The notes below the pieces were generated by a model. The model was given only the letters and a program-made list of their open reading frames with translations. It was not told where the DNA came from and did no database searches. Shown piece after piece: positions 37,318 through 57,639 of a stretch of 64,000 bases of DNA (positions are counted from its first letter, which is position 1; each line of letters opens with the position of its first letter). Position numbers and translations under genes: made by a program. The stretch comes from Spelaeicoccus albus. Its GTDB lineage: Bacteria; Actinomycetota; Actinomycetes; Actinomycetales; Brevibacteriaceae. The stretch covers positions 558,001-622,000 of the forward strand of contig NZ_JACBZP010000001.1 in the NCBI RefSeq assembly GCF_013409065.1, in the 5' to 3' direction.

Positions 37318-37759
37318 TTACGGGGTGTCGAGCGCGCGGACTTCGTCATGTAAACGTTCCATTGTGACGTCGAGTTCGTTCGCCACATCGGCTGCGCGGC
37401 CGAGCTCGGCAAGCAGTTCGGCCGGAACGTCCCTGGCGTATTTGTAATAGATCTTGTGCTCGAGGCTGGCCCAGAAGTCCATGGCGATCGTGCGAATCTG
37501 GATCTCGACGCGAACCTGCTCGACGTTGTCCGACATGAAGACGGGCACGTCCACGATCAGGTGCAAGCTCTTGTACCCGTTCGGCTTGGGTGACTTGATG
37601 TAGTCCTTGACCTCGATCACGCTCACATCGCCTTGCCGCGTGAGCATATCGGCCACCCGGTACGAATCGGCGATGAAGCTGCAGACCACGCGGATCCCGG
37701 CGATATCGTGCATTGTCGCCCGCATGGCCTCGAAGGTCAGCGGGCACCCGATGCGTCTC
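37318..37759 (-). pseudogene. Small alarmone synthetase, C-terminal half (split by insertion)
   Basis: It encodes ARRIGCPLTFEAMRATMHDI, then AGIRVVCSFIADSYRVADML, PKPNGYKSLHLIVDVPVF and EIQIRTIAMDFWASLEHKIY, the RelA/SpoT nucleotidyltransferase core. The N-terminal ATP-binding helices are missing here and lie at 57406-57639. Deleting 37765-57400 plus one GCTTT copy gives one continuous 681-bp gene. Locally the frame stays open into the element terminus (to a GTG at 37786-37788), so a truncated product is possible but would lack the ATP-binding part. Confidence 0.92.
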
Positions 37760-37764
37760 GCTTT
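37760..37764. repeat. Target-site duplication, left copy (GCTTT)
   Basis: GCTTT immediately outside the left terminus, repeated at 57401-57405. It reads AAAGC in the interrupted gene, inside the codons for Lys-Ala of SIVEKARRIG. Confidence 0.92.
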
Positions 37765-37898
37765 GTCAGTTTCAGGAGTCGATGGCACGGCCTGCCGCGC
37801 AATTTCAGGGTTGTGCAGAGGACTGTTGACTTTTATTTGTCAGTAGTCCCGTTCGCAACATTGCGTTTTGCTCTAAAGTTCCCTTCACGAAACGGCAG
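37765..37898 (+). repeat. Left terminus of the 19.6-kb element (copy A)
   Basis: It begins GTCAGTTTCAGGAGTCGATG and continues for ~130 bp closely matching the copy at 50657 (about a dozen differences). Only the first 25 bp match the right terminus. An internal TTTATTTGTCAGTAGTCCC echoes the TGTCAGAAGT motif found just inside the right end. Confidence 0.88.
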
Positions 37899-37962
37899 TC
37901 GGTGTGAAGGCTCACATTCAGTTGGGGATCGGCCAGGGGTGCGGGCATGGGAGACTGTCAGG

Positions 37963-38460
37963 GTGGGTACAACGTTGACAACGCTTGCGCTGCCCGACGC
38001 CGTGGTCGTGCTTCGTCGAGCGGCGATTGAGGATGTGCGAGGCATCGTCGAGTTGTTGTCTGACGACCCATTGGGCAACACCCGGGAGGATGTTGCTGGT
38101 GAGGCGGACCTGGGGCCGTATCGGCGTGCGTTCCATCTGATCGACGCTGACCCGGCCCAGCTCCTCGTGGTCGCCACCACTCGCAGCGATGAGATGGTGG
38201 GCACTCTCCAGTTGTCCACCATTCCTGGCATGTCTCGGCGGGGCGCGCTGCGAGCTCAGATCGAAGCTGTGAGAGTGGCCCAGGCCTACCGCAGCCAAGG
38301 CTTGGGTGCCGCCATGTTCGAGTGGGCCATCGCCGAGGCCCGCCGGCGCGGATGCATCCTCGTGCAACTGACCACGGACAAGACCCGCCTCGATGCGCAC
38401 CGCTTCTACGAGCGACTCGGCTTCGTTGCTTCACACGAGGGTCTGAAGCTGAACCTATGA
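37963..38460 (+). CDS. GNAT family N-acetyltransferase
   Basis: 165 residues. GTG 37963 has GGGAG 9 bases upstream. GNAT features: VVLRRAAIEDVRGIVELL at the start, acetyl-CoA loop EAVRVAQAYRSQGLGAAMF, and the C-terminal LDAHRFYERLGFVASHEGLK. It is the first cargo gene inside the left terminus. Substrate unknown; relatives acetylate antibiotics or small amines. Confidence 0.86.
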   Translation: MGTTLTTLALPDAVVVLRRAAIEDVRGIVELLSDDPLGNTREDVAGEADLGPYRRAFHLIDADPAQLLVVATTRSDEMVGTLQLSTIPGMSRRGALRAQIEAVRVAQAYRSQGLGAAMFEWAIAEARRRGCILVQLTTDKTRLDAHRFYERLGFVASHEGLKLNL

Positions 38461-40282: not shown

Positions 40283-42394
40283 ATGTCCGAAGCAATTGTC
40301 CGACAGGCCGACGCGCTTGCCGATGAGCAGCACGCCGTCGACCTGGCATACGGGCGCAGAGACGAGCTGCTGATGGAGGTCAAGCAGGGTCTCGTCGACG
40401 CAGTCCCACGCAATGCCGTGGAAGCGGCCCGCCTCACGATCCTTCGCCGCAGACAAGCGGACCTGCGGCACGCTGAAACCGGCCTGGTCTTCGGCCGGCT
40501 CGACGCCGCCAACGGATCCACCCGTCATCTGGGGCGAGTCGGACTCCCCAGCCCGGACGACGACTCCGAGCCATTGGTACTAGACTGGCGCGCTCCCGCG
40601 GCACGTCCGTTCTACACGGCGACGCCGCTCGACTCACAGGGCCAACGGCGCCGCCGGCACATCCGAACCAACGGGCGCGAGGTGGTCGGAGTCGACGACG
40701 AACCGCTCGACGCGGGAGGTGAATCCGGCGATCTCGTCGGTGAGGGCGCTCTGTTCGCGGCGCTCTCCGCACGCCGGACCGGCCGGATGGGCACTGCAGT
40801 CGCGACACTGCAGCGTGAGCAGGACGACATCGTGCGGGCGGCGCCCGATGGCCTGCTGGTCGTGCAGGGCGGCCCGGGTACCGGCAAAACGGTCGTCGCG
40901 CTGCACCGCGTCGCCTACCTGCTCTTCAGCCATCCGAGTCTGGCCAGCCAGGGGGTATTGGTCCTCGGCCCGTCGCGCCGCTTCCTGGACTACATCGCTC
41001 AAGTACTGCCGGCTCTTGGCGAGACTGCGGTCGTGGGAGCGACCTGCGAGACGCTGGTGCCAGGTGTCGCAGTGGAGCGGGACGAGTCCCGTGAGCTCGC
41101 GAAGCTGAAGGGGCGCTCTCTCTGGCAGTCTTCGCTGACGGCGTACGTGCGCTCATTGGCCCCTGTGCCGACTGCTCTGGACTTCCTGGTGGACGGCGAG
41201 ACTCATACGCTGCCGGCGCATCGGATCCGGCGCGCTGTGGAGGGTGCGGTGTCCGGAAGGGACCTACACGCGGCCCGTCGTTGGTTCGTCGAGAACGTGC
41301 ACGACTTGCTGACCGACGCCGTGATCGAACGCCACGAGGAATTGCTCGACGGCGTGGAGGATGGCTTTGAGGACCTCCTGGCCCGTGTGGACGCCGGCCT
41401 GGCGAAGTCGGATAATCGCGGCACCCTTACCGGCGCAATGGGCAGCGACGTCGATGGGACTCTCACCGACGATGACATCGAGCGGCTGCACACAAGAATC
41501 GCGGGCGACCGCGACATCACTGGCGTGCTCGACGGGTTCTGGCCTCTCTACGACCCCCGCCAGACCCTTCAATCGTTCCTAGCGGACGACGCGCTGCTCC
41601 ACGAGTTCGCCCCCTGGCTCGATGAACATGAGCGGGCAATGATCACTAACGCCCTGACGCCGCTCGCGCCCAGCGATATTCCGCTGTTGGACGCCGTCGC
41701 GGAGTTGTTGGGACCGACCGAAGCAGCAAGTGAACAGGGTGAGTTCCTCGTGGACCGGGCAGCAGCTCAGCGTGATTGGGCATACGGGCACGTCGTCGTC
41801 GACGAGGCGCAGGAACTCTCGGCGATGCAGTGGCAGATGGTGGCCCGCCGCGTCCCGTCCCGATCTATCACCGCCGTGGGCGACATTGACCAGGCTGAAG
41901 CGCCGCATCGGCATAGGACGTGGGAAGGGTCGCTCACCCCGGTTTTCGGTGAGCGATGGCGCCGCGGCGACCTGACGATCTGCTTTCGGACCCCGCGTGA
42001 AGTTATAGCTCTCACCGGCCCGGTCCTGGCCCGGGCAGGAAGCCACAACGAGCCGCCCCGCGCGGTCCGCGACTCAGGGTTTGAGCCTTGGGAAGTCACT
42101 TCGGCCGACCCAGAACTGGCCGACACCGTCGCGGGCCTGGTGGAGGCAATGAGAGTGCGGTGGCAAAGTGGCAGTGTCGGTGTGGTGGCACCGCGGTCGC
42201 GTATCGCGGTGTTGCGAGAAGCTGTGCCGGACGCTGTCGTGCTGGCCGCCGTTGAGGCAAAGGGGCTGGAGTGGGACGCCGCGCTAGTCGTCGACCCGGA
42301 CGGCATCACCGCTGAGCCTCGCGGCTGGAACGGACTGTATGTCGCGCTGACCCGCTGCACGCAAGAACTGGGCCAGGTGCGACCGGCCGATTAA
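40283..42394 (+). CDS. helR: HelR/HelD-like RNA polymerase-associated helicase
   Basis: 703 residues, superfamily 1 helicase: an N-terminal helical arm (~1-90), a LDWRAPAARPFYTA domain typical of HelD, Walker A GGPGTGKTVV (196-203), Walker B HVVVDEAQELSAMQWQ, and the late motif GLYVALTRC. HelD proteins free stalled RNA polymerase; the actinobacterial HelR branch displaces rifamycins and confers tolerance. No rifamycin-associated element was seen upstream. A general HelD function is equally possible. Only one helicase of this type is in the window. Confidence 0.82.
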   Translation: MSEAIVRQADALADEQHAVDLAYGRRDELLMEVKQGLVDAVPRNAVEAARLTILRRRQADLRHAETGLVFGRLDAANGSTRHLGRVGLPSPDDDSEPLVLDWRAPAARPFYTATPLDSQGQRRRRHIRTNGREVVGVDDEPLDAGGESGDLVGEGALFAALSARRTGRMGTAVATLQREQDDIVRAAPDGLLVVQGGPGTGKTVVALHRVAYLLFSHPSLASQGVLVLGPSRRFLDYIAQVLPALGETAVVGATCETLVPGVAVERDESRELAKLKGRSLWQSSLTAYVRSLAPVPTALDFLVDGETHTLPAHRIRRAVEGAVSGRDLHAARRWFVENVHDLLTDAVIERHEELLDGVEDGFEDLLARVDAGLAKSDNRGTLTGAMGSDVDGTLTDDDIERLHTRIAGDRDITGVLDGFWPLYDPRQTLQSFLADDALLHEFAPWLDEHERAMITNALTPLAPSDIPLLDAVAELLGPTEAASEQGEFLVDRAAAQRDWAYGHVVVDEAQELSAMQWQMVARRVPSRSITAVGDIDQAEAPHRHRTWEGSLTPVFGERWRRGDLTICFRTPREVIALTGPVLARAGSHNEPPRAVRDSGFEPWEVTSADPELADTVAGLVEAMRVRWQSGSVGVVAPRSRIAVLREAVPDAVVLAAVEAKGLEWDAALVVDPDGITAEPRGWNGLYVALTRCTQELGQVRPAD

Positions 42395-42741
42395 TCGACC
42401 CGGAACAGTGTGAACCGCCACAGGGCAGCATTGCTGGGCACTTCCGAGCACCGCGCACGCTTATGCTGCCGGGCGCGTACCCCTTCGGATAGCACAGTGC
42501 GCATCAGGGCCTCGATTTACGCTACAAAAGATCGACTGTCAGTTTCAGAAGTTGTCTCCACAAATCTCAAAGCTCGACGGCGTTCGTGGCCGGTGCCTCG
42601 GACAGTCCCGAGCGGTCCATTCAACCATCGTCAAGTGGGCCGTGTCGGTCGGCGCGACCGTCAATCGGGCTCATCAGTACACGAGGAACGTTCCACAAGC
42701 CAGAAGGGGCTTTATCGAATCACACGAATCTGCGCCACGAA
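42395..42741. other. Gene-free stretch with a terminus fragment
   Basis: No convincing gene. It contains GTCAGTTTCAGAAGT at 42537-42551, identical to the first 15 bp of the conserved terminus, in the same orientation as the left end, after which similarity stops. Confidence 0.55.
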
Positions 42742-43620: not shown

Positions 43621-44091
43621 TCACAGGCCGTCCGCCGGCGGTAGCCGGGGTTCCGTGTCGAGGGTGATCTCCAGGCCGACGGCCGGGCCACCGTGCTTAC
43701 GGGACGCGCCGATGAGGAGCATCAGATGGAACAGGCGAAATTGATTGTCGTACTTGGCCGTCATGGCGCGTGCGGCCGGGCGTAGTTCCGCTCTGGGCAG
43801 GACGCGTGCGCGCCCTGCGTGCCATCGTCCGAGCGGTTCGCCGTGGAACGTGGCTGCTGCGATCTCGACGTGGTCGTTGTGGTGAATGCGTCTGACTTTC
43901 CACGACCGGCTGGGTGTCACGGCGTACCATCGCCCGTTCGCTGGTGCGAGCCAGATCGGTGTCGACTTGGCGGACCCGTTACGTCGGAAAGTTCGAAGTG
44001 CGAAGAAGCGATCCTTGTGTGGATCAGTTCGAAACTGCAGGCCGGTCAAGCACCTCTTCAGCGTCCTTCGGACTATTTGACCGATGTGCAC
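43621..44091 (-). CDS. PPOX-type flavin/F420-dependent oxidoreductase
   Basis: 156 residues. A split-barrel FMN/F420-binding pattern (FRRNGSAKSTPIWLAPANGR; WKVRRIHHNDHVEIAAATF; GRARVLPRAELRPAARA). Last gene of the TetR-led operon. The ATG at 44091 gives a 68-bp overlap with the upstream gene; a TTG at 44049 inside it is a likely alternative start. Confidence 0.72.
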   Translation of the reverse strand: MHIGQIVRRTLKRCLTGLQFRTDPHKDRFFALRTFRRNGSAKSTPIWLAPANGRWYAVTPSRSWKVRRIHHNDHVEIAAATFHGEPLGRWHAGRARVLPRAELRPAARAMTAKYDNQFRLFHLMLLIGASRKHGGPAVGLEITLDTEPRLPPADGL

Positions 44092-45178
44092 TGTTCTTGT
44101 CCTTTCCTGGCGTGTTGTCGGAGATTGGATCGGCAGAAAGCGGGTGTGCCCTTTGCTGGTCGGACGATGCCGGCCGCGAGTCGAGTCGGCGTTGGTAGAG
44201 GGCGATGATCAAGGCCGCTTCGAGCAGAGCGAACACTGCAAGGGTGATGAGCTCGGCCGGGTTGGTCGACGCGAAAAGGGAGGCGCCGACAATGGTGTGT
44301 GCCAACAGTGCACCGCCGGCGACAGCGACGAGGTGGCGCCGACTCCATCCGGTACGTAAGGACGAGCGCCACAAAATCGTGAGTACGACAGCGGTGACGG
44401 CGAGGGAGCCCGCGATTTGGGCCAGGACGGGCCATCCCGCGCCGAAGAGGGGATGCGGGTCGCCGGCTGCGCCGAGTGGGGCGGTGAGCCGGAGCGCGAG
44501 CACCGTACCAGCGGCAACGGCGACGCCGATCAGCCACGGCGGAGGCGGAGTGCCGGGAACGATCGGCCGGTGGGTGGGCTTGGGAACGATCAGCAGCGCG
44601 GTGAGGCCCAGAGCCAGCACGACTGTTCCGGCGACGATGAGGTGCCCGACCGGTACGGCGTCGGCGGTGTTGGCGCCGGGCGCGTTGGGCGCGACGGCAA
44701 GGCGGAGGATCGCGACGCCGAGCAGGTAGGCAACGGCGGTGATTACGAGTCCACGGGTGCGAAGGTACGGTTGGTGTCGCCGGGCCGGGAACATCAGTTC
44801 GGTGATCAAGATCGGCACGGCGATGGTGAATGCCACGTGATAGATCATGTTGAACTCCGTGTAGGCCCAATTCACGCCGAGGACCCGGGCTCCCCACTGG
44901 GCGGCGTGGTAGGTGTGCGGGCTGAACATTGCGCGCAGACCGAATCCGTCCTCGACGACCTCGTAAGCGACGCCGAGCAACAGCAGACTCGCCCAGCCGC
45001 GGCCGGTGCGACGGACCAGCTCGCGAGCGAGTAGCGCGCCGCACCCATAGACCGGCACCAGGAATGGCAGCGCGTACGCGACTTGGATCGGTAGCGAGCC
45101 CCACGACAGCTCGGCCACCAACGGGGTGAGCACGATCAGCACCAGGATCGGCAGCATTGCGCGGGGCCGGTCAGACAT
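44024..45178 (-). CDS. Polytopic membrane protein, unknown family
   Basis: 384 residues with about ten hydrophobic helices and a long hydrophilic C-terminal tail (RLDSRPASSDQQRAHPLSAD). It begins 8 bp before the end of the upstream membrane-protein gene, so it is in the same operon. No transport signature recognised. Confidence 0.7.
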   Translation of the reverse strand: MSDRPRAMLPILVLIVLTPLVAELSWGSLPIQVAYALPFLVPVYGCGALLARELVRRTGRGWASLLLLGVAYEVVEDGFGLRAMFSPHTYHAAQWGARVLGVNWAYTEFNMIYHVAFTIAVPILITELMFPARRHQPYLRTRGLVITAVAYLLGVAILRLAVAPNAPGANTADAVPVGHLIVAGTVVLALGLTALLIVPKPTHRPIVPGTPPPPWLIGVAVAAGTVLALRLTAPLGAAGDPHPLFGAGWPVLAQIAGSLAVTAVVLTILWRSSLRTGWSRRHLVAVAGGALLAHTIVGASLFASTNPAELITLAVFALLEAALIIALYQRRLDSRPASSDQQRAHPLSADPISDNTPGKDKNSAHRSNSPKDAEEVLDRPAVSN

Positions 45179-45887
45179 CGAGACCTCCTATTTCGTCCGT
45201 TCGTTTTAGTCGAGCGGGTTTGGGATGGTAGAGCGCCGATGTCGGGTTGTACGCACCGGCGGCGCGGTAGTAGACGTTTGTCACGACGATGAGGACGGCT
45301 GAGGTGATCGCGTACATCGCAGCACTAATGGCGGGGACGACGTCGACGGGCAGGGTGTAGGCCATGACCACCCGGGCGGCAGAGTCGAGTAGGGTGCCGA
45401 GTCCCCAGAGAACCGTGGAGATTTGCCACATTCGACGAAAGCGCGGCGCACGTTCCCAGGCGGCGTCCCAATCGGCCGGCCAACCGAGCCGCCCTTCGAG
45501 AAGTGGTCGAGAGAACTGATAGGCCAGCGGCCGCCGCGCCCTGAGCGAGCCGAGGAACCAGACCCCCGTGACGGCGGTCAGCCAACCTTCTTTTGCCAGA
45601 AGGAACCGGGTGCTGCCGGTCAGCAGCGACACCCCGACGCTCAGCAGCATCGTACTCATCACGAACACCGCGATACCGTCCAGCCGGTGCTGCGTCGCCA
45701 CTACGACGACCGCGGTGATCCCGGAGGCGAGCGCACCCGCAAGCAGTGCGAGGTAGATGCTCACTCCAGCGCCGCGCAGCACATAGAACAACGTGAGTGG
45801 AACGACCAAGTCGAATACCATTCGTGCTGCGGCGAGCAATGCGCGACCAGTGCGTCGACCAGACTCCTGTGTGGTCGTCTGGTTCAC
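45171..45887 (-). CDS. VC0807-like membrane protein
   Basis: 238 residues with about six membrane helices; FDLVVPLTLFYVLRGAGVSI near the start and the SLRARRPLAYQFSRPLLEGR loop are typical of the VC0807-type family, whose function is unknown. It overlaps the TetR gene by 4 bp and follows it in one operon. Confidence 0.7.
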   Translation of the reverse strand: MNQTTTQESGRRTGRALLAAARMVFDLVVPLTLFYVLRGAGVSIYLALLAGALASGITAVVVVATQHRLDGIAVFVMSTMLLSVGVSLLTGSTRFLLAKEGWLTAVTGVWFLGSLRARRPLAYQFSRPLLEGRLGWPADWDAAWERAPRFRRMWQISTVLWGLGTLLDSAARVVMAYTLPVDVVPAISAAMYAITSAVLIVVTNVYYRAAGAYNPTSALYHPKPARLKRTDEIGGLDV

Positions 45888-46486
45888 GGCAGGGTCCGAG
45901 TAGTGCCGGCTTGGAACAGTTCCACGAGCTCGTGGGCGTAGTGGGCGCAGTCCAGGTCCGGCTTCGAGTCCAGCAGGAACGGCAGCCCATCCACCGCCCG
46001 CTGCACGACGGCGGCCATAATGACCGGGTCGAATTCTCCGAACTCACCGGCCGCCTGCCCGTCGCGCAAGATCTGCTCGACCGGAGAAATCACTCTGCGG
46101 TCGGCATCGGCGTCGTAATTCAGCCCTCCACCGAGCAAAATGGCCATCAGCGCCTTCATTTGCGCCCGATGAGTGTCGATAAAGCCCACTACCCCCTCGA
46201 TATAGGCACGCAAACGCGCCGGAGCGCCATCCCGGTCACGCAACTGCTCAGCCATGAAGGTCCCGATCGTACTCACCACGTCATTCGCCGCGGCAGTGAT
46301 CAACTCGTCCTTGCCGGCGAAATGATACGAGATCAACCGGGTACTGGACAGGCCCGCACGCTCTGCGATCCGCGCGAACGACGCCCGACCGTAGCCCTCC
46401 TCGGCAATCACAGTGATCGTCGCAGCCACGATCTGCGTGCGCCGTGCACTTGCCGCCGCAGATTTATCCGCATTCGTTACTCGCAC
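45884..46486 (-). CDS. TetR-family repressor of a membrane-protein operon
   Basis: 200 residues from GTG 46486. TetR helix-turn-helix: ATITVIAEEGYGRASFARIA, then ERAGLSSTRLISYHFAGKD. The start was chosen because one of two tandem operators overlaps it, so the longer upstream frame would run through regulatory DNA. First gene of a four-gene operon (TetR, two membrane proteins, PPOX). Confidence 0.86.
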   Translation of the reverse strand: MRVTNADKSAAASARRTQIVAATITVIAEEGYGRASFARIAERAGLSSTRLISYHFAGKDELITAAANDVVSTIGTFMAEQLRDRDGAPARLRAYIEGVVGFIDTHRAQMKALMAILLGGGLNYDADADRRVISPVEQILRDGQAAGEFGEFDPVIMAAVVQRAVDGLPFLLDSKPDLDCAHYAHELVELFQAGTTRTLP

Positions 46487-46512
46487 AAGTAAAAAGTTAC
46501 TTGGTGAAGTAA
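46477..46512 (-). promoter_or_regulatory. Tandem 16-bp operators of the TetR operon
   Basis: TTACTCGCACAAGTAA (46477-46492) and TTACTTGGTGAAGTAA (46497-46512) fit TTACT-N6-AGTAA, with centres 20 bp apart (about two helical turns). The first overlaps the TetR start codon. Confidence 0.72.
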
Positions 46513-46791
46513 AAAAATGCAATCCCGCTTTGTGTGACGTCCCAATGCTGAAACTGCCACTTGTAGAGATGCCGTCGAGTTTGGACGCGGCATGCCTGGA
46601 TAGATTGCACAAATGCTCGCTATCGCCGGAACTCGTGCAGAATACTTCCGGGGTTCAAATCAAACGCGGCAAATATGACCTTGGTTGCCTTCTCGGCCAA
46701 CTCGACGTGAATAGCAACCCATAAGCCGATCATTGACCGGTCGGGTTTGCCGACAGGTTGGATTCGTCGCCCGCATCTTCCGGAATGCCGT
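46513..46791. other. Gene-free stretch
   Basis: No supported gene between the TetR promoter and the SnoaL-like gene; it presumably holds the promoter of the TetR operon. Confidence 0.4.
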
Positions 46792-50150: not shown

Positions 50151-50656
50151 CACGGGAGGAAGTCATCGGGAAGGGTTCGGCGCGGGCGACGTCCCACCGG
50201 GCGGCCACGACCCGTGCACGGGAGTCTCGGTGCCGGCTGCGGTCGGCGGTCGTAGCGGCACTCGCTCTCTGGGGTCTGGGCTACGCCTGCTACCGGGCCT
50301 ACTACGCGGACGGTGGCGAAGTTGGGATGATCGGCCGTCCGGTCTCGGAGGGGCTGTTCCGGCGGGTCAACGCTACTGGTGCCGCCATCTTGCTGGTCGC
50401 CGCGGTGCTGCCGGTGGTGCTCTCCCGGGCGACGGCGCTGCGGACGACGATCCCGGTGGTGGGCTGGATCGGCGCGGTCGGCTGCTGCATGCACGCCCTG
50501 GTCGACGGCGTGCTGCGGTTGCTCAGCGTGACCGGGGTGCACCCGGCTCAGCTGCCTGAACAGTTCTGGCTGTCCTTCGACCGGCGCTCGGCCGATGTGC
50601 AGGACCTGCTCTTCAATGAGCCGTGGTTCTTCATCGAGGGAATGTTGGGGGCGGTT
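50151..50656 (+). pseudogene. Membrane protein gene cut by terminus copy B
   Basis: A frame encoding VVAALALWGLGYACYRAYYA, VGMIGRPVSEGLFRRVNATG and VVGWIGAVGCCMHALVDGVL (DUF3995-like small membrane protein) runs directly into the terminus copy at 50657 and loses its natural C-terminus after FFIEGMLGAV. No clear ATG/GTG start fits; a GGGAGGAA site sits at ~50153, so the 5' end may also be damaged. Confidence 0.55.
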
Positions 50657-50793
50657 GTCAGTTTCAGAAGTCGACGGCACGGCCTGCCGCGCAATTTCAG
50701 GGTTGTGCAGAGGACTGTTGACATTTATTTGTCAGAAGTCCCGTTCACAAGCGTGCGTTTTGCTCTGAAGTCCCATTCACGACACGGCACTCC
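50657..50793 (+). repeat. Internal copy of the element terminus (copy B)
   Basis: It starts GTCAGTTTCAGAAGTCGACG, identical to the right terminus over 25 bp, then matches the left terminus for ~130 bp. Same orientation as copy A. It truncates the upstream membrane-protein gene. No GCTTT flank, so it was not part of the insertion event that split the synthetase gene. Confidence 0.88.
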
Positions 50794-50936: not shown

Positions 50937-51581
50937 ATGTTGAGCTTTGCACCGCTGCAAGTCCGAGTATCGACGCCGCGAATCGAGCTCGTTGGCGCTA
51001 CTGACGAGCTGCTCGAACAACTGCAGCCCCTCGTGCGTGATGGCAAAGCCAATGCGGACCCCGCACCCTATGACGACCCCATATCGCTTTACGAAGAAGA
51101 CCCGGCAGTTCGCGTACACAAGTGGCTGCAGGGCATATGGCGCGGCCGCGGGCACGCAGCCCCGGGCTCCTGGAGGCTGAACTTCGCCGTGGTGCTCGAT
51201 AGTCAACCAGTGGGAATGCAAGACCTGATCGGCGAAAACTTCGATACCTTCGGAACAGTGATGTCGTTCTCATGGCTGTCCACCGACATACGCCACCGTG
51301 GGATCGGCACAGAAATGCGTCAGGCAATTCTGCATCTGGCATTCGAGGGGCTTAAAGCCACAGAGGCAGCCTCCGATGCGTTCGTCGACAATGCCGGCTC
51401 CAACGGTGTATCGAGGGCTCTTGGGTACACGGAGAACGGTGTTGATTGGGCGACTCGCCGTGGCGAAGTGGGCCTGCTCCAACGATGGAGACTGACCCGC
51501 GACGACTGGCTTCCCCACCGCAGGACCGACATCCGGTTGCAGGGAGTGGGCGACTGCGCAGCAGCGCTCGGGATAGCTTAA
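50937..51581 (+). CDS. GNAT family acetyltransferase
   Basis: 214 residues. RimJ/RimL-like pattern: LNFAVVLDSQPVGMQDLIGE, FSWLSTDIRHRGIGTEMRQA, FVDNAGSNGVSRALGYTENG. It is the first gene after copy B, as another GNAT gene is the first after copy A. In-frame ATG at 50922 would add five residues. Confidence 0.85.
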   Translation: MLSFAPLQVRVSTPRIELVGATDELLEQLQPLVRDGKANADPAPYDDPISLYEEDPAVRVHKWLQGIWRGRGHAAPGSWRLNFAVVLDSQPVGMQDLIGENFDTFGTVMSFSWLSTDIRHRGIGTEMRQAILHLAFEGLKATEAASDAFVDNAGSNGVSRALGYTENGVDWATRRGEVGLLQRWRLTRDDWLPHRRTDIRLQGVGDCAAALGIA

Positions 51582-53519: not shown

Positions 53520-53771
53520 ATGCTAGTAAATGACGCCTCTACAGCCCAGAATGACAACATGCTCAACTCTGAGGAAGAAGCGCACACTGAGGTGCCAATG
53601 GACGACAACGTTCTTTCCGTTGTAGATCAAATCATGATCGAATTTGGTCGCTCCTTGGGAGAACTAGAGGGATTTTCGACTACCGGAGCTGATTTGGCGA
53701 TACTTCTACGTCGGGAGAAGGCACCCACTGAAGCTGAAGTTCGTGCGATCCTCGAAGGTGCCACGAAATGA
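53520..53771 (+). CDS. Small acidic partner protein of the SMC-like ATPase
   Basis: 83 residues, acidic, no membrane segment or known domain. The C-terminal half (LAILLRREKAPTEAEVRAIL) is predicted helical and could be an interaction domain. Its stop overlaps the ATPase start by 4 bp (ATGA), so the two are translationally coupled and probably form a complex. An internal ATG at 53559 is an alternative start. Base composition is poorer in G+C than the neighbouring genes. Confidence 0.72.
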   Translation: MLVNDASTAQNDNMLNSEEEAHTEVPMDDNVLSVVDQIMIEFGRSLGELEGFSTTGADLAILLRREKAPTEAEVRAILEGATK

Positions 53772-56203
53772 TCAAAATCGAGATGCTACGCATCAACAAC
53801 TTTCGAGGCATCCGCTCGTTTGATTTCAAGATGGATGAGAAGTCTTTCGTAGTTGAAGGGCGGAACGGGACAGGAAAGAGCGGCGTGATCGACGCACTCG
53901 AGTTCGCACTCACAGGATCCATCACCCGTTTGACAGGCAGAGGTTCGGCCGGGGTTTCGGTTAAGTCGCATGCTTCGCATGTTGACATGGTCAAGACACC
54001 TAAAGATGCTTGGGTCGAAATGACATTCACCGTCGTTGGGACAGGCTCGTCTCATGTATTGAAGCGGACTGTCGCGAAACCTCGGGAGCCAGCTTTGACT
54101 CCACATACTCTCGAATCTGAGGCCGCGCTCAATTGGATGGTGCAACATCCTGAGTTCGCTCTCACGCGAAGAGAGATAGTCCGCTTCGTTCTAGCTGAGG
54201 GAAAAAGTCGAGGGGAGGGTGTTGCGGATCTACTTGGTCTTCAACGTATCGGCCAAGCGAGATCGACATTGGTCCGGGTTCGCAATGTGGACAAGCGCGA
54301 TTCTGATATAGCCAGAACAGATCTCTCTGGTCGAAAGGACAAACTACTTTCTGCGTCTGGAATCGAAACTCTAGATGGTGATGCGCTATTAACTGTGGTC
54401 AACACGAACAGGATAGGTCTGGGACTTCGGTCTGTCGTCGACGTAAATCCCGAAGGGATTGTCGCAGGAGTCGATTCTTCTGCGAGCAAGTCCGCATCGC
54501 TCCACAACCGGCCCGAATGGATAAACGAGCTGTCAATACTTGAGGCAAGTCTGAAAGCTTCCCTTCAAGATGACGTCGACGGGCAGCTAGGCCAATTGGT
54601 AGATGATGCTGCTCGTCGGACTGATTCGGTGGAGTTTATGACAGCGCTGAAGTCCGATGACCTTCTGGAATCTGCGCTGGAGCTGTTCGAGGGCGTGGAG
54701 TGCCCCGTTTGCGCAACCACCTGGCTCCCAGGCGAGTTTGAGGCGGTCGTTGCACGTAAAAGGGTTGAATCTACTGCAGCAAAGAACGCTCTAACGGCCC
54801 TCAGTGCTAGGTCCGGCCTTCTGGTGCCACGTTTTAGTGATTTACAGAACAAGATCTCGGATGTGCTTCCCATTGCGGAAGCGATGGACCACGAATCGAC
54901 CGCAACAAAGCAGCAACTTGAAATAATTCGTGCGGCAATCAATACTCTCCTTTCCGTCGATTCGCCCTCGGAGCTAGCAGCGCTTGCTGTACTCGCGAAG
55001 TCGAATATGGAGCCAATTAGTGCCTGGCTTTCGGAGCTGCAACTGAAAGTTCAGGCACTCCCCTTACCTAGCGAATCGGATGAACGAAAGGGTCGCTTGC
55101 GGTCAATGTCGCATGCTCTGGATGAGTATAAACAACAGCAGCAAGTGGCTTCTGAACTGTCCGAAAAGTCTCGAAGATCAAGCGCAGTCTGCAAGGTCTT
55201 TGAATCGTCGACGTCTACGAGTCTTGAGCAAATCTATCTCGATGTTCAAACTAAGTTTGCGTCCTTTTACGCGGCTGTCAATGCTGACGATGAGAGCCAA
55301 TTTTCTGCAACTTTAACTCCATCAGGCGCAGGCTTGGACATGAATGTCGACTTCTACGGTCGAGGTCAGTACCCTCCTGGGGCATACCATAGCGAGGGTC
55401 ATCAAGATGCGATGGGGCTATGTCTCTATCTCGCTCTAGCCCAATTGACCATGAGCTCCAAATTTACCCTGTGCGCCTTGGACGACGTCCTAATGTCGAT
55501 CGACTCGGGTCACCGCCGTCTCGTCGTTTCGTTGTTGATGAAGGAATTTCCGAACACGCAGTTTGTCGTGACTACCCACGACGAGCAATGGATGCGCCAA
55601 ATGAAATCACAGGGTTTTGCACAAGGCCGTAACGTACTTCAATTTCGGACATGGAGTGTCGATAGCGGGCCTGTCGACTGGGCGAACTATGAACCGTGGG
55701 ATGAGATTTCGACCTTCTTGGGTAAGGGGCAGGTGAAAGCTGCTGCTGGATCATTGCGCTCTTACCTTGAGCACATTGGGCGCGAATGCGCCAGCAACGT
55801 CGCAGCACCAGTCCCGTACAGACTGGACGGCCAAAATACGCTTGGAGAACTCTTCAACAGCAGCATCAAGGCGCTGAGAGCAACAATTAAAAAGGGAAAG
55901 AACTCTGCCAACTCTTGGGGGCATTCCGAGATTGTTGCTGAACTAGACGCGTGGGATACCCAAATACAAGCGGCAGCCCAGGAAGCAAAACAAGATGAAT
56001 GGGCAATCAACACTGTCGTTCACTTCAACGAATGGGAGAATCAGACCCCGGCTGAATTTGCTCTGGTAGCGAAGTCGTGGAGGTGTTTGATCAAGGAGTT
56101 TTCGTGTAGCGAATGTGAGGGACTGGTGAGAATCGGAGGCGACCAGGAGTCTCTTCGTTGTGCTTGCACACACGTGTCAGTGAATCTGCTCGGTAAGTCT
56201 TGA
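53768..56203 (+). CDS. SMC/Rad50-like ABC ATPase with zinc-hook and C-terminal zinc ribbon
   Basis: 811 residues. Walker A GRNGTGKSGV (31-40), a short coiled-coil arm broken by a CPVC hook (Cys312, Cys315), signature-like EGHQDAMGLCLYLAL (~543-557), Walker B TLCALDD (Asp572-573), H-loop VVTTHDEQW (His604). Residues ~625-775 are a helical domain of unknown type, and the C-terminus carries CSEC/CAC (Cys780, 783, 798, 800), probably a zinc ribbon. It lacks nuclease motifs. Coupled to the 83-residue gene. Paired SMC-like ATPases in accessory DNA often act in phage or plasmid defence, but no effector is visible. Confidence 0.85.
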   Translation: MIKIEMLRINNFRGIRSFDFKMDEKSFVVEGRNGTGKSGVIDALEFALTGSITRLTGRGSAGVSVKSHASHVDMVKTPKDAWVEMTFTVVGTGSSHVLKRTVAKPREPALTPHTLESEAALNWMVQHPEFALTRREIVRFVLAEGKSRGEGVADLLGLQRIGQARSTLVRVRNVDKRDSDIARTDLSGRKDKLLSASGIETLDGDALLTVVNTNRIGLGLRSVVDVNPEGIVAGVDSSASKSASLHNRPEWINELSILEASLKASLQDDVDGQLGQLVDDAARRTDSVEFMTALKSDDLLESALELFEGVECPVCATTWLPGEFEAVVARKRVESTAAKNALTALSARSGLLVPRFSDLQNKISDVLPIAEAMDHESTATKQQLEIIRAAINTLLSVDSPSELAALAVLAKSNMEPISAWLSELQLKVQALPLPSESDERKGRLRSMSHALDEYKQQQQVASELSEKSRRSSAVCKVFESSTSTSLEQIYLDVQTKFASFYAAVNADDESQFSATLTPSGAGLDMNVDFYGRGQYPPGAYHSEGHQDAMGLCLYLALAQLTMSSKFTLCALDDVLMSIDSGHRRLVVSLLMKEFPNTQFVVTTHDEQWMRQMKSQGFAQGRNVLQFRTWSVDSGPVDWANYEPWDEISTFLGKGQVKAAAGSLRSYLEHIGRECASNVAAPVPYRLDGQNTLGELFNSSIKALRATIKKGKNSANSWGHSEIVAELDAWDTQIQAAAQEAKQDEWAINTVVHFNEWENQTPAEFALVAKSWRCLIKEFSCSECEGLVRIGGDQESLRCACTHVSVNLLGKS

Positions 56204-56456: not shown

Positions 56457-56500
56457 AAGTTGATCGGCTATGCGCGCGTCTCAACGAGGCGGCATCCGAC
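56457..56500 (+). pseudogene. Remnant of a second serine recombinase N-terminus
   Basis: KLIGYARVST is encoded by 56457-56486, the invariant start of resolvase/invertase genes with its catalytic Ser. The following codons lose all similarity, so it is a short relic of another recombinase upstream of the intact one. Confidence 0.6.
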
Positions 56501-56570
56501 TCAAATTCGACCAGCTCGGCATCCCTCTCGAATTCCTGTCACAATAGATGCGGACGATACCGTCTGTGTT

Positions 56571-56660
56571 ACGTAGAATAAGTAACGGAATAAGTGACAC
56601 AATAGTCTAGGAGAGCGAATCGTCTGAACGGTGTCACTTTATCGAACGAATAAGTGATGG
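56571..56660 (+). other. Putative res site for the adjacent resolvase
   Basis: Repeated motifs: GAATAAGTAAC (56576-56586), GAATAAGTGACAC (56588-56600), inverted GTGTCACTTTATCG (56631-56644) and GAATAAGTGATG (56648-56659). The clustering of inverted and direct copies directly before the resolvase gene is the usual layout of a Tn3-type recombination site. Confidence 0.62.
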
Positions 56661-56671
56661 AGGACCACCGG

Positions 56672-57295
56672 ATGCTTGTCGGATATGCGCGGGTCTCAAA
56701 GGCCGATGGGTCGCAGACCACCGATCTGCAACGTGACGCGCTCTTCACCGCCGGAGTAGGGGCCGAACGGCTGTATGAGGACCAGGCTTCCGGGAAGAAA
56801 GACGATCGGCCACATCTGGCCGCGTGTCTGAAAGCGTTACGCGCCGGTGACACGTTGATCGTGTGGAAGCTCGATCGTCTCGGTCGGGATCTGCGTCATC
56901 TGGTCAATACCGTCCATGACCTCACCGAACGTGGCATCGGATTGAGAGTCCTCACTGGCCAGGGTGCGGCCATCGACACGACCACCGCGTCCGGGAAACT
57001 GGTCTTCGGCATATTCGCCGCCCTGGCAGAGTTCGAACGCGAACTGATCTCCGAACGCACCGTCGCCGGCCTCACCTCAGCCCGCGCCCGCGGACGCAAA
57101 GGCGGACGGCCGTACAAGATGACGCCAGCCAAGGTGCGACTGGCCGTAGCCTCAATGGGCCAACTCGACACGAAGGTCGGCGGACTCTGCAAAGAACTCG
57201 GTATCACCCGCCAAACCCTCTACCGCCACGTCTCTCCCAGCGGAGAACTCCGCGAGGACGGACGAAAGGTACTGAAGCAGAGCAAGAGCAAGTAA
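56672..57295 (+). CDS. tnpR: Serine recombinase (resolvase)
   Basis: 207 residues. Catalytic Ser in MLVGYARVSKADG; conserved acidic and basic residues in DRPHLAACLKALRAGDTLIV and WKLDRLGRDLRHLVN; a C-terminal helix-turn-helix (GGLCKELGITRQTLYRHV). ATG 56672 has GGAGG 8 bases upstream. It belongs to the small resolvase/invertase group of Tn3-type transposons and lies 80 bp from the right terminus, next to its likely res site. Confidence 0.93.
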   Translation: MLVGYARVSKADGSQTTDLQRDALFTAGVGAERLYEDQASGKKDDRPHLAACLKALRAGDTLIVWKLDRLGRDLRHLVNTVHDLTERGIGLRVLTGQGAAIDTTTASGKLVFGIFAALAEFERELISERTVAGLTSARARGRKGGRPYKMTPAKVRLAVASMGQLDTKVGGLCKELGITRQTLYRHVSPSGELREDGRKVLKQSKSK

Positions 57296-57373
57296 CTTCG
57301 GGCGCGAATCCTCACGTGAGCTGCTCACGGACTATGACGTCAGTCGAGGGAGTGAAGGCCACTTCTGACATTT

Positions 57374-57400
57374 CGTGCCGTCGACTTCTGAAACTGACAC
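57374..57400 (-). repeat. Right terminus of the 19.6-kb element (copy C)
   Basis: Read inward on the minus strand it begins GTGTCAGTTTCAGAAGTCGA. It matches the first 25 bp of copies A (2 differences) and B (none), but carries two extra outer bases (GT). A second TGTCAGAAGT motif follows at 57361-57370. Confidence 0.9.
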
Positions 57401-57405
57401 GCTTT
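57401..57405. repeat. Target-site duplication, right copy (GCTTT)
   Basis: Identical to 37760-37764. Collapsing the pair restores the alarmone synthetase frame exactly. Confidence 0.92.
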
Positions 57406-57639
57406 CTCGACAATGCTCTTCGGCTCTTTCAGCCGCGACGTGACGTGCTCGATAGGGCTGTATTCGTGCGTATAGGTGAATTCGTCCTTGAGAATGTTGA
57501 TCTTCGTCATCATCTCGTCGATGCCGAACCGGTACGTCATCAAAAAGCGCGAGAGTCCGTCGGGCGGGAACATCAGCTGCTCAGCCGCCGTCTCGCCCGT
57601 CACCGACACACCTGTTTGTTGGGAAGGACTGTCCTTCAC
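57406..57639 (-). pseudogene. Small alarmone synthetase, N-terminal half
   Basis: GTG 57639 overlaps the amidase stop (GTGA). It encodes LSRFLMTYRFGIDEMMTKIN, EYSPIEHVTSRLKEPKSIVE, then K and the split point. This is the helical and ATP-binding part of a RelA/SpoT-domain small synthetase (ppGpp/pppGpp). The nucleotidyltransferase centre lies 19.6 kb away at 37318-37759, so the gene is inactivated; the intact protein would have had 226 residues. Confidence 0.92.

Follow-up and report, generated by a model that had tools for sequence, protein, structure and literature searches.

Transposons of the Tn402/Tn5053 family favour the res site as their target. Insertions of Tn402/Tn5053-type elements elsewhere are rare but real, and the passages that report them (PMC7765201) also describe two arrangements close to the one considered here. 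In Tn6604, the outer IRt works together with the IRo of an inner element, itself equipped with an IRt; tni-less elements such as Tn6606, which carry 5-bp repeats, are moved in trans. For Tn7-like transposons, passages of another report (PMC8649781) state that several left and right ends may arise when one element inserts into or beside another already present. A structure with extra internal ends is already known in kind. In titles, abstract openings and passages of the literature, we found no transposase-less or multi-end actinobacterial Tn402-type element, which does not prove its absence in print.

We analysed a 64,000-nucleotide stretch of Spelaeicoccus albus DNA, hereafter the window, which contains a 19,636-bp (19.6-kb) block, A–C, whose outer ends are A (from 37764) and C (to 57399). 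The pentanucleotide CGCTT stands directly outside each of them, at 37759..37763 beside A and at 57400..57404 beside C; a lone 5-bp repeat is matched by chance about once in 1000 cases. The block separates the C-terminal part (37318..37763, minus strand) of a RelA/SpoT-type gene from its N-terminal part (57405..57639, minus strand), and deleting A–C together with one CGCTT copy in silico fuses the halves into one open frame. Of the 59 other family genomes, at least 35 have an uninterrupted homologue of the joined protein, as counted from the matches listed, one of which has an internal stop; the best is 68% identical over residues 2–190. Since CGCTT borders both ends and the RelA/SpoT-type frame is restored, the last transposition used A and C as its ends. 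Thus, A–C moved into a stress-signalling gene as a single 19.6-kb piece, with duplication of 5 bp. The target repeat is of the length typical of the Tn402/Tn5053 family; the target is this RelA/SpoT-type gene and not a res site or its vicinity. The initial annotation had overlooked both the CGCTT pair and a fourth end, D.

The left end A (37764..37900, plus strand) is of the long, tniA-side type and has a 25-bp terminus with subterminal repeats. B (50656..50792, plus strand), an internal left end of the same type, is in the same orientation and gives with A a gapless 137-bp alignment of 91% identity, so that the two are the copies of about 130 bp that had been noticed at the outset. Likeness past 137 bp was rejected, its score of 21 being the 95th percentile of shuffles. 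C (57351..57399, minus strand), of the short, cargo-side type, shares with these ends, as the initial annotation also held, only its outermost bases: its outer 26 bp are inverted relative to B and identical to it at 26 of 26 positions, and differ from A at 2 of 25. It is indeed the only right end found, as against the left ends A and B. D (42537..42582, plus strand) is a short, cargo-side type end in the orientation of A and B; it shares its outer 16 bp with B and C, agrees at 21 of 25 positions overall, and carries a second repeat of the short type in an imperfect inner part. The 16-bp core TGTCAGTTTCAGAAGT occurs four times in the window with at most two mismatches, against 0.01 times expected in shuffles, and the degenerate 25-bp end pattern occurs five times in the 4.03-Mb genome and never in the reversed control. 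From the terminus, the subterminal repeats and the adjoining res–tniR, the ends are of the Tn402 type: A, B and C are genuine Tn402/Tn5053-type transposon ends, with 25-bp inverted terminal repeats starting TGTC. Their alignment supports the view that A and B are sister copies of one end kind. Dating B against A by decay relative to other ends gave no signal; of the 13 sites at which A and B differ, other ends match B at 8 and A at 5 (14 aligned ends, minus the duplicate L034 and the poorly aligned L037b). The left flank of B, GCGGT, has no partner at C. At position 349870 of the same genome (L008:8871), a lone Tn402-type end overlaps the 3′ end of a recombinase gene and has no partner within the stretch read.

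Beside C lie a res site (56537..56657, plus strand), with conserved blocks common to autonomous actinobacterial elements, and a serine resolvase gene (56672..57295, plus strand). The resolvase is 83–87% identical to TniR in five actinobacterial plasmid records, and genes of this kind adjoin tniQ, tniB and tniA in Rhodococcus pDF02 and others, which identifies it as TniR. A–C thus has the res site and tniR resolvase of the Tn402/Tn5053 family and lacks its tniA, tniB and tniQ. What is left of the tniABQ operon is a relic, the last codons of tniQ (56491..56547, plus strand); no complete tniA, tniB or tniQ was found in A–C, and none of this kind in the host's own genome, where TniA has no better match than 32% over 118 residues and TniB profiles match twice, in frames of 841 and 875 residues. 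A–C is a defective Tn402/Tn5053 derivative, not an autonomous member. Since neither the element nor the genome offers these genes, A–C needs helper TniA/B/Q from another element, and we infer that its transposition was served in this way. The A-to-B part holds no second res or tniR, so there is no proof that A was ever the boundary of a full element. A LIGYARVS fragment just upstream of res was considered as a second resolvase start and dropped; its homology is to the tniQ tail in another frame. Remnants of tniQ ahead of an intact tniR are also present at L012 (7797–8039), L137 (8250–8765) and L138 (10536–10697), three stretches in which neither tniA nor tniB was matched.

Beside A lies a GNAT gene (37963..38460, plus strand); further in, the cargo includes a gene for a HelR/HelD-like RNA polymerase recycling ATPase (40283..42394, plus strand) and a host-like stretch (43629..46537). 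In the last, 43629–44432 and 45128–46537 (2.2 kb) match the host chromosome around 1.946 Mb with 88–91% identity, so part of the A–B segment stems from this host's own kind of DNA. A second GNAT gene (50937..51581, plus strand) adjoins B. The initial annotation had noted that both left ends are followed by a GNAT gene; both genes are there, but they belong to different Pfam families (Acetyltransf_1 beside A, Acetyltransf_3 beside B), and the resemblance looks like coincidence. It had also described B as truncating a membrane-protein gene. There is indeed an open frame (50153..50655, plus strand) that extends into B and possibly represents a truncated gene, but it matches nothing in Pfam or NCBIfam, and neither 396 order genomes (of which three others matched at E 3e-4 to 8e-4) nor the plasmid collection yielded a convincing homologue or an intact form. 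Further towards C, the cargo includes a gene for an SMC/RecF-like ATPase of 811 aa (53768..56203, plus strand), low in G+C and weakly like the PtuA and LmuB defence ATPases. Its full-length relatives are 81% (Paeniglutamicibacter) and 66% (Arthrobacter) identical, and its plasmid relatives, mostly alphaproteobacterial, about 34–37%. The ATPase cassette also occurs outside such elements at two loci (L041, L042), with no Tn402-type end within their 22 kb. A tblastx comparison of the island with three loci gave chiefly composition noise, and only blastn rows were used.

Relatives of the ends were matched in 8 of 60 family genomes and 7 of 396 order genomes, counts that take in the host's own genome, and in 10 of 72,556 plasmid records; the order set includes some family genomes again. 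Apart from 25–26-bp matches, none of these was closer than 80% over 93 bp, and no A-type end was found outside the island. The DNA of res–tniR–C had matches in 18 of the 60 family and 40 of the 396 order genomes, where only the host's own copy was covered in full, and it disclosed no stand-alone B–C unit. Elements running from A to C with B as a regular internal component, the pattern named at the outset as speaking against nested growth, were likewise not seen.

For comparison we surveyed 44 sequences (899,894 bases), comprising the window and 43 loci chosen for B-like ends or tniR-like DNA; its rates do not stand for those of a population. Short flank loci, L009, L041, L042, L088–L090 and others fetched for other reasons were left out. 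The survey yielded 66 such ends, with near-duplicates in L033/L034, L052/L053 and L133/L134, and none in the reversed control. Exact 5-bp repeats bound eight units, the window and seven others; L052, with the near-repeat CAAAG/CACAG, was not counted. In the seven others, the paired ends differ at 2 (L047), 3 (L145), 4 (L010, L033, L136) or 5 (L053, L135) of 25 positions. Pairing ends by 25-bp identity, tested on these repeat-bounded units, does not discriminate. A–C, with two differences, is an unremarkable pair; B and C are unusually alike, which hints at a common origin and is no proof of one.

Extra internal ends in left-end orientation are present in two of the eight exact-repeat units, the window and L136. 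In L136, the outer pair has the repeat AATTT, and an internal end of the same orientation encloses, with the right end, a bare tniRQBA unit of 4,971 bp; the cargo between the outer and inner ends includes frames for a P-type ATPase and an ArsR-like protein, both named by eye without profile search. Consecutive ends of the same orientation with no matching repeat occur in L033, L037, L054, L055, L057, L132, L133/L134 and L143. Among the 26 long-type ends, five are beside tniA, 11 are faced by a serine recombinase and one has tniR further in; A and B belong to the remaining nine, which have neither tniA nor a facing serine recombinase or tniR. Long ends that adjoin tniA and resemble A and B occur in autonomous elements, and most short ends resembling C and D belong to the cargo-side kind.

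Four units of the survey have no tniA/B/Q matches: L047 (9849–12606), L053 (14001–17649), L052 (14001–19014) and L033 (8386–14057). They have 5-bp repeats at their borders (with one mismatch in L052), a serine recombinase faces their long end, and a second recombinase gene starts about 100 bp beyond their short end. We read them as transposase-less res hunters beside their target resolvase. In another repeat-bounded unit, L145 (5991–19827), some 8 kb of other DNA interrupts tniR.

The window itself shows the transposon ends, the 5-bp target repeat, the reading frame that opens on joining, the res site, tniR and the remaining piece of tniQ; the helper and the order of events we infer. That A–C is a composite, transposase-less element that moved as A–C and contains foreign internal ends is a far safer statement than either specific order of its assembly. 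As to the order, we favour, with somewhat better than even confidence, a composite transposase-less Tn402/Tn5053 transposon in which A–C, inserted as a unit, arose by distal-end pairing of A with C over B–C. A smaller B-to-C unit, its tniABQ already swapped for cargo, would have lain downstream of the related end A in the same orientation. A transposase would have paired C with the farther A, and the 12.9 kb between A and B would have become new cargo, B and D being internal ends left by earlier or neighbouring elements. The orphan GCGGT beside B fits such pairing, because the remainder of B's target would stay behind. Two histories fit: distal-end pairing needs no deletion and has a precedent in Tn6604, and nesting followed by collapse between res sites explains the single res. 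Against distal pairing, the searches found neither a stand-alone B–C nor an A-type end outside the island. The lack of a second res or tniR between A and B, the target outside any res site, the chance level of a lone 5-bp repeat and the undated order of A and B weigh in the same direction.

The initial annotation proposed that B and C may be the original pair, with A as a later, independent end and the identity of B and C as the trace of a common origin. This comes near the history we favour and keeps an appreciable probability, though one clearly short of even. In its favour, all 26 outer positions match between B and C, and B–C is distinct in composition, with 56% G+C against 63% in A–B. The evidence given does not carry it, however: since the seven other repeat-bounded pairs differ at 2–5 of 25 positions, paired ends would not be expected to match exactly, and the two differences between A and C do not exclude that these form a pair. 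The missing stand-alone B–C among the 60 family and 396 order genomes also counts against it. Of the original proposal, nested growth stays plausible, with Tn6604 as precedent and L136 as parallel, while 25-bp identity fails as a mark of the original pair.

A second alternative, which we consider unlikely, reverses the order. A–C would have come first, and a second element, consisting of B and its own right end, would have inserted later in the same orientation; TniR would have recombined the two direct res repeats, a deletion that removed the second right end together with its target repeat and what remained of the cut gene, and two left ends with one res–tniR–C would be left. Such a course accounts for the presence of just one res and one right end, for the unpartnered GCGGT, for the frame interrupted at B and for the repeat around A–C; both TniR and res look intact. 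It requires, however, a deletion that left no separate trace, a hybrid res is not demonstrable, and the unpaired short-type D implies a reversed element, which could not collapse in that way. Both alternatives share the general claim, so that the confidences given to the readings overlap. That B and D are chance matches or decoys in ordinary cargo is very improbable: D is imperfect in its inner part, but B retains 137 bp at 91% identity to A, which already refutes the idea for B, and the shuffled window and reversed control described above yield next to no core and no end.

The two leftover inner ends and the lost transposase of A–C suggest growth from smaller mobile elements, and loss of the transposase genes with retention of res–tniR seems recurrent. 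We propose tentatively, and with more doubt than confidence, that Tn402-type elements of Actinomycetales gain cargo stepwise, a fixed end being paired with ever farther ends of relatives in its neighbourhood, that bypassed ends record the steps, and that many of these elements are transposase-less, keeping their ends and resolvase. If extra internal ends mark earlier borders, the order of cargo uptake could be read from the sequence. A–C also shows that transposase-less res-hunter elements with their own resolvase are not restricted to Pseudomonas and its plasmids.

Among the described systems, Tn6604 would resemble A–C if A was joined to the right end of an inner B–C unit: in the passages describing it, an outer IRt and the IRo of an inner element were paired and foreign DNA between the IRts was carried along (PMC7765201). 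Unlike A–C, Tn6604 has working tni genes and mer, whereas A–C has lost tniABQ, contains the further end D and lies in a chromosomal actinobacterial gene. The tni-defective Tn6606 and Tn6607 of the Tn5053 family share with A–C the lack of a complete tniABQ; Tn6606 likewise kept its ends with 5-bp repeats, and Tn6607 retained res–tniR. They differ in lying in or near res sites, and the same passages describe no extra internal ends in them (PMC7765201). The element of Rhodococcus pDF02 (L010) is like A–C in its kinds of end, its res, a TniR that is 86% identical and a 5-bp repeat, GTTTC; it is, however, autonomous, with a complete tniABQ, cargo between tniR and the short end, and no internal ends. 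L136 (G326) has, like A–C, an extra inner left end within a repeat-bounded pair and cargo between the outer and inner ends. It differs in being autonomous, in its P-type ATPase cargo and in its outer short-type end, which lies about 100 bp from a resolvase gene.
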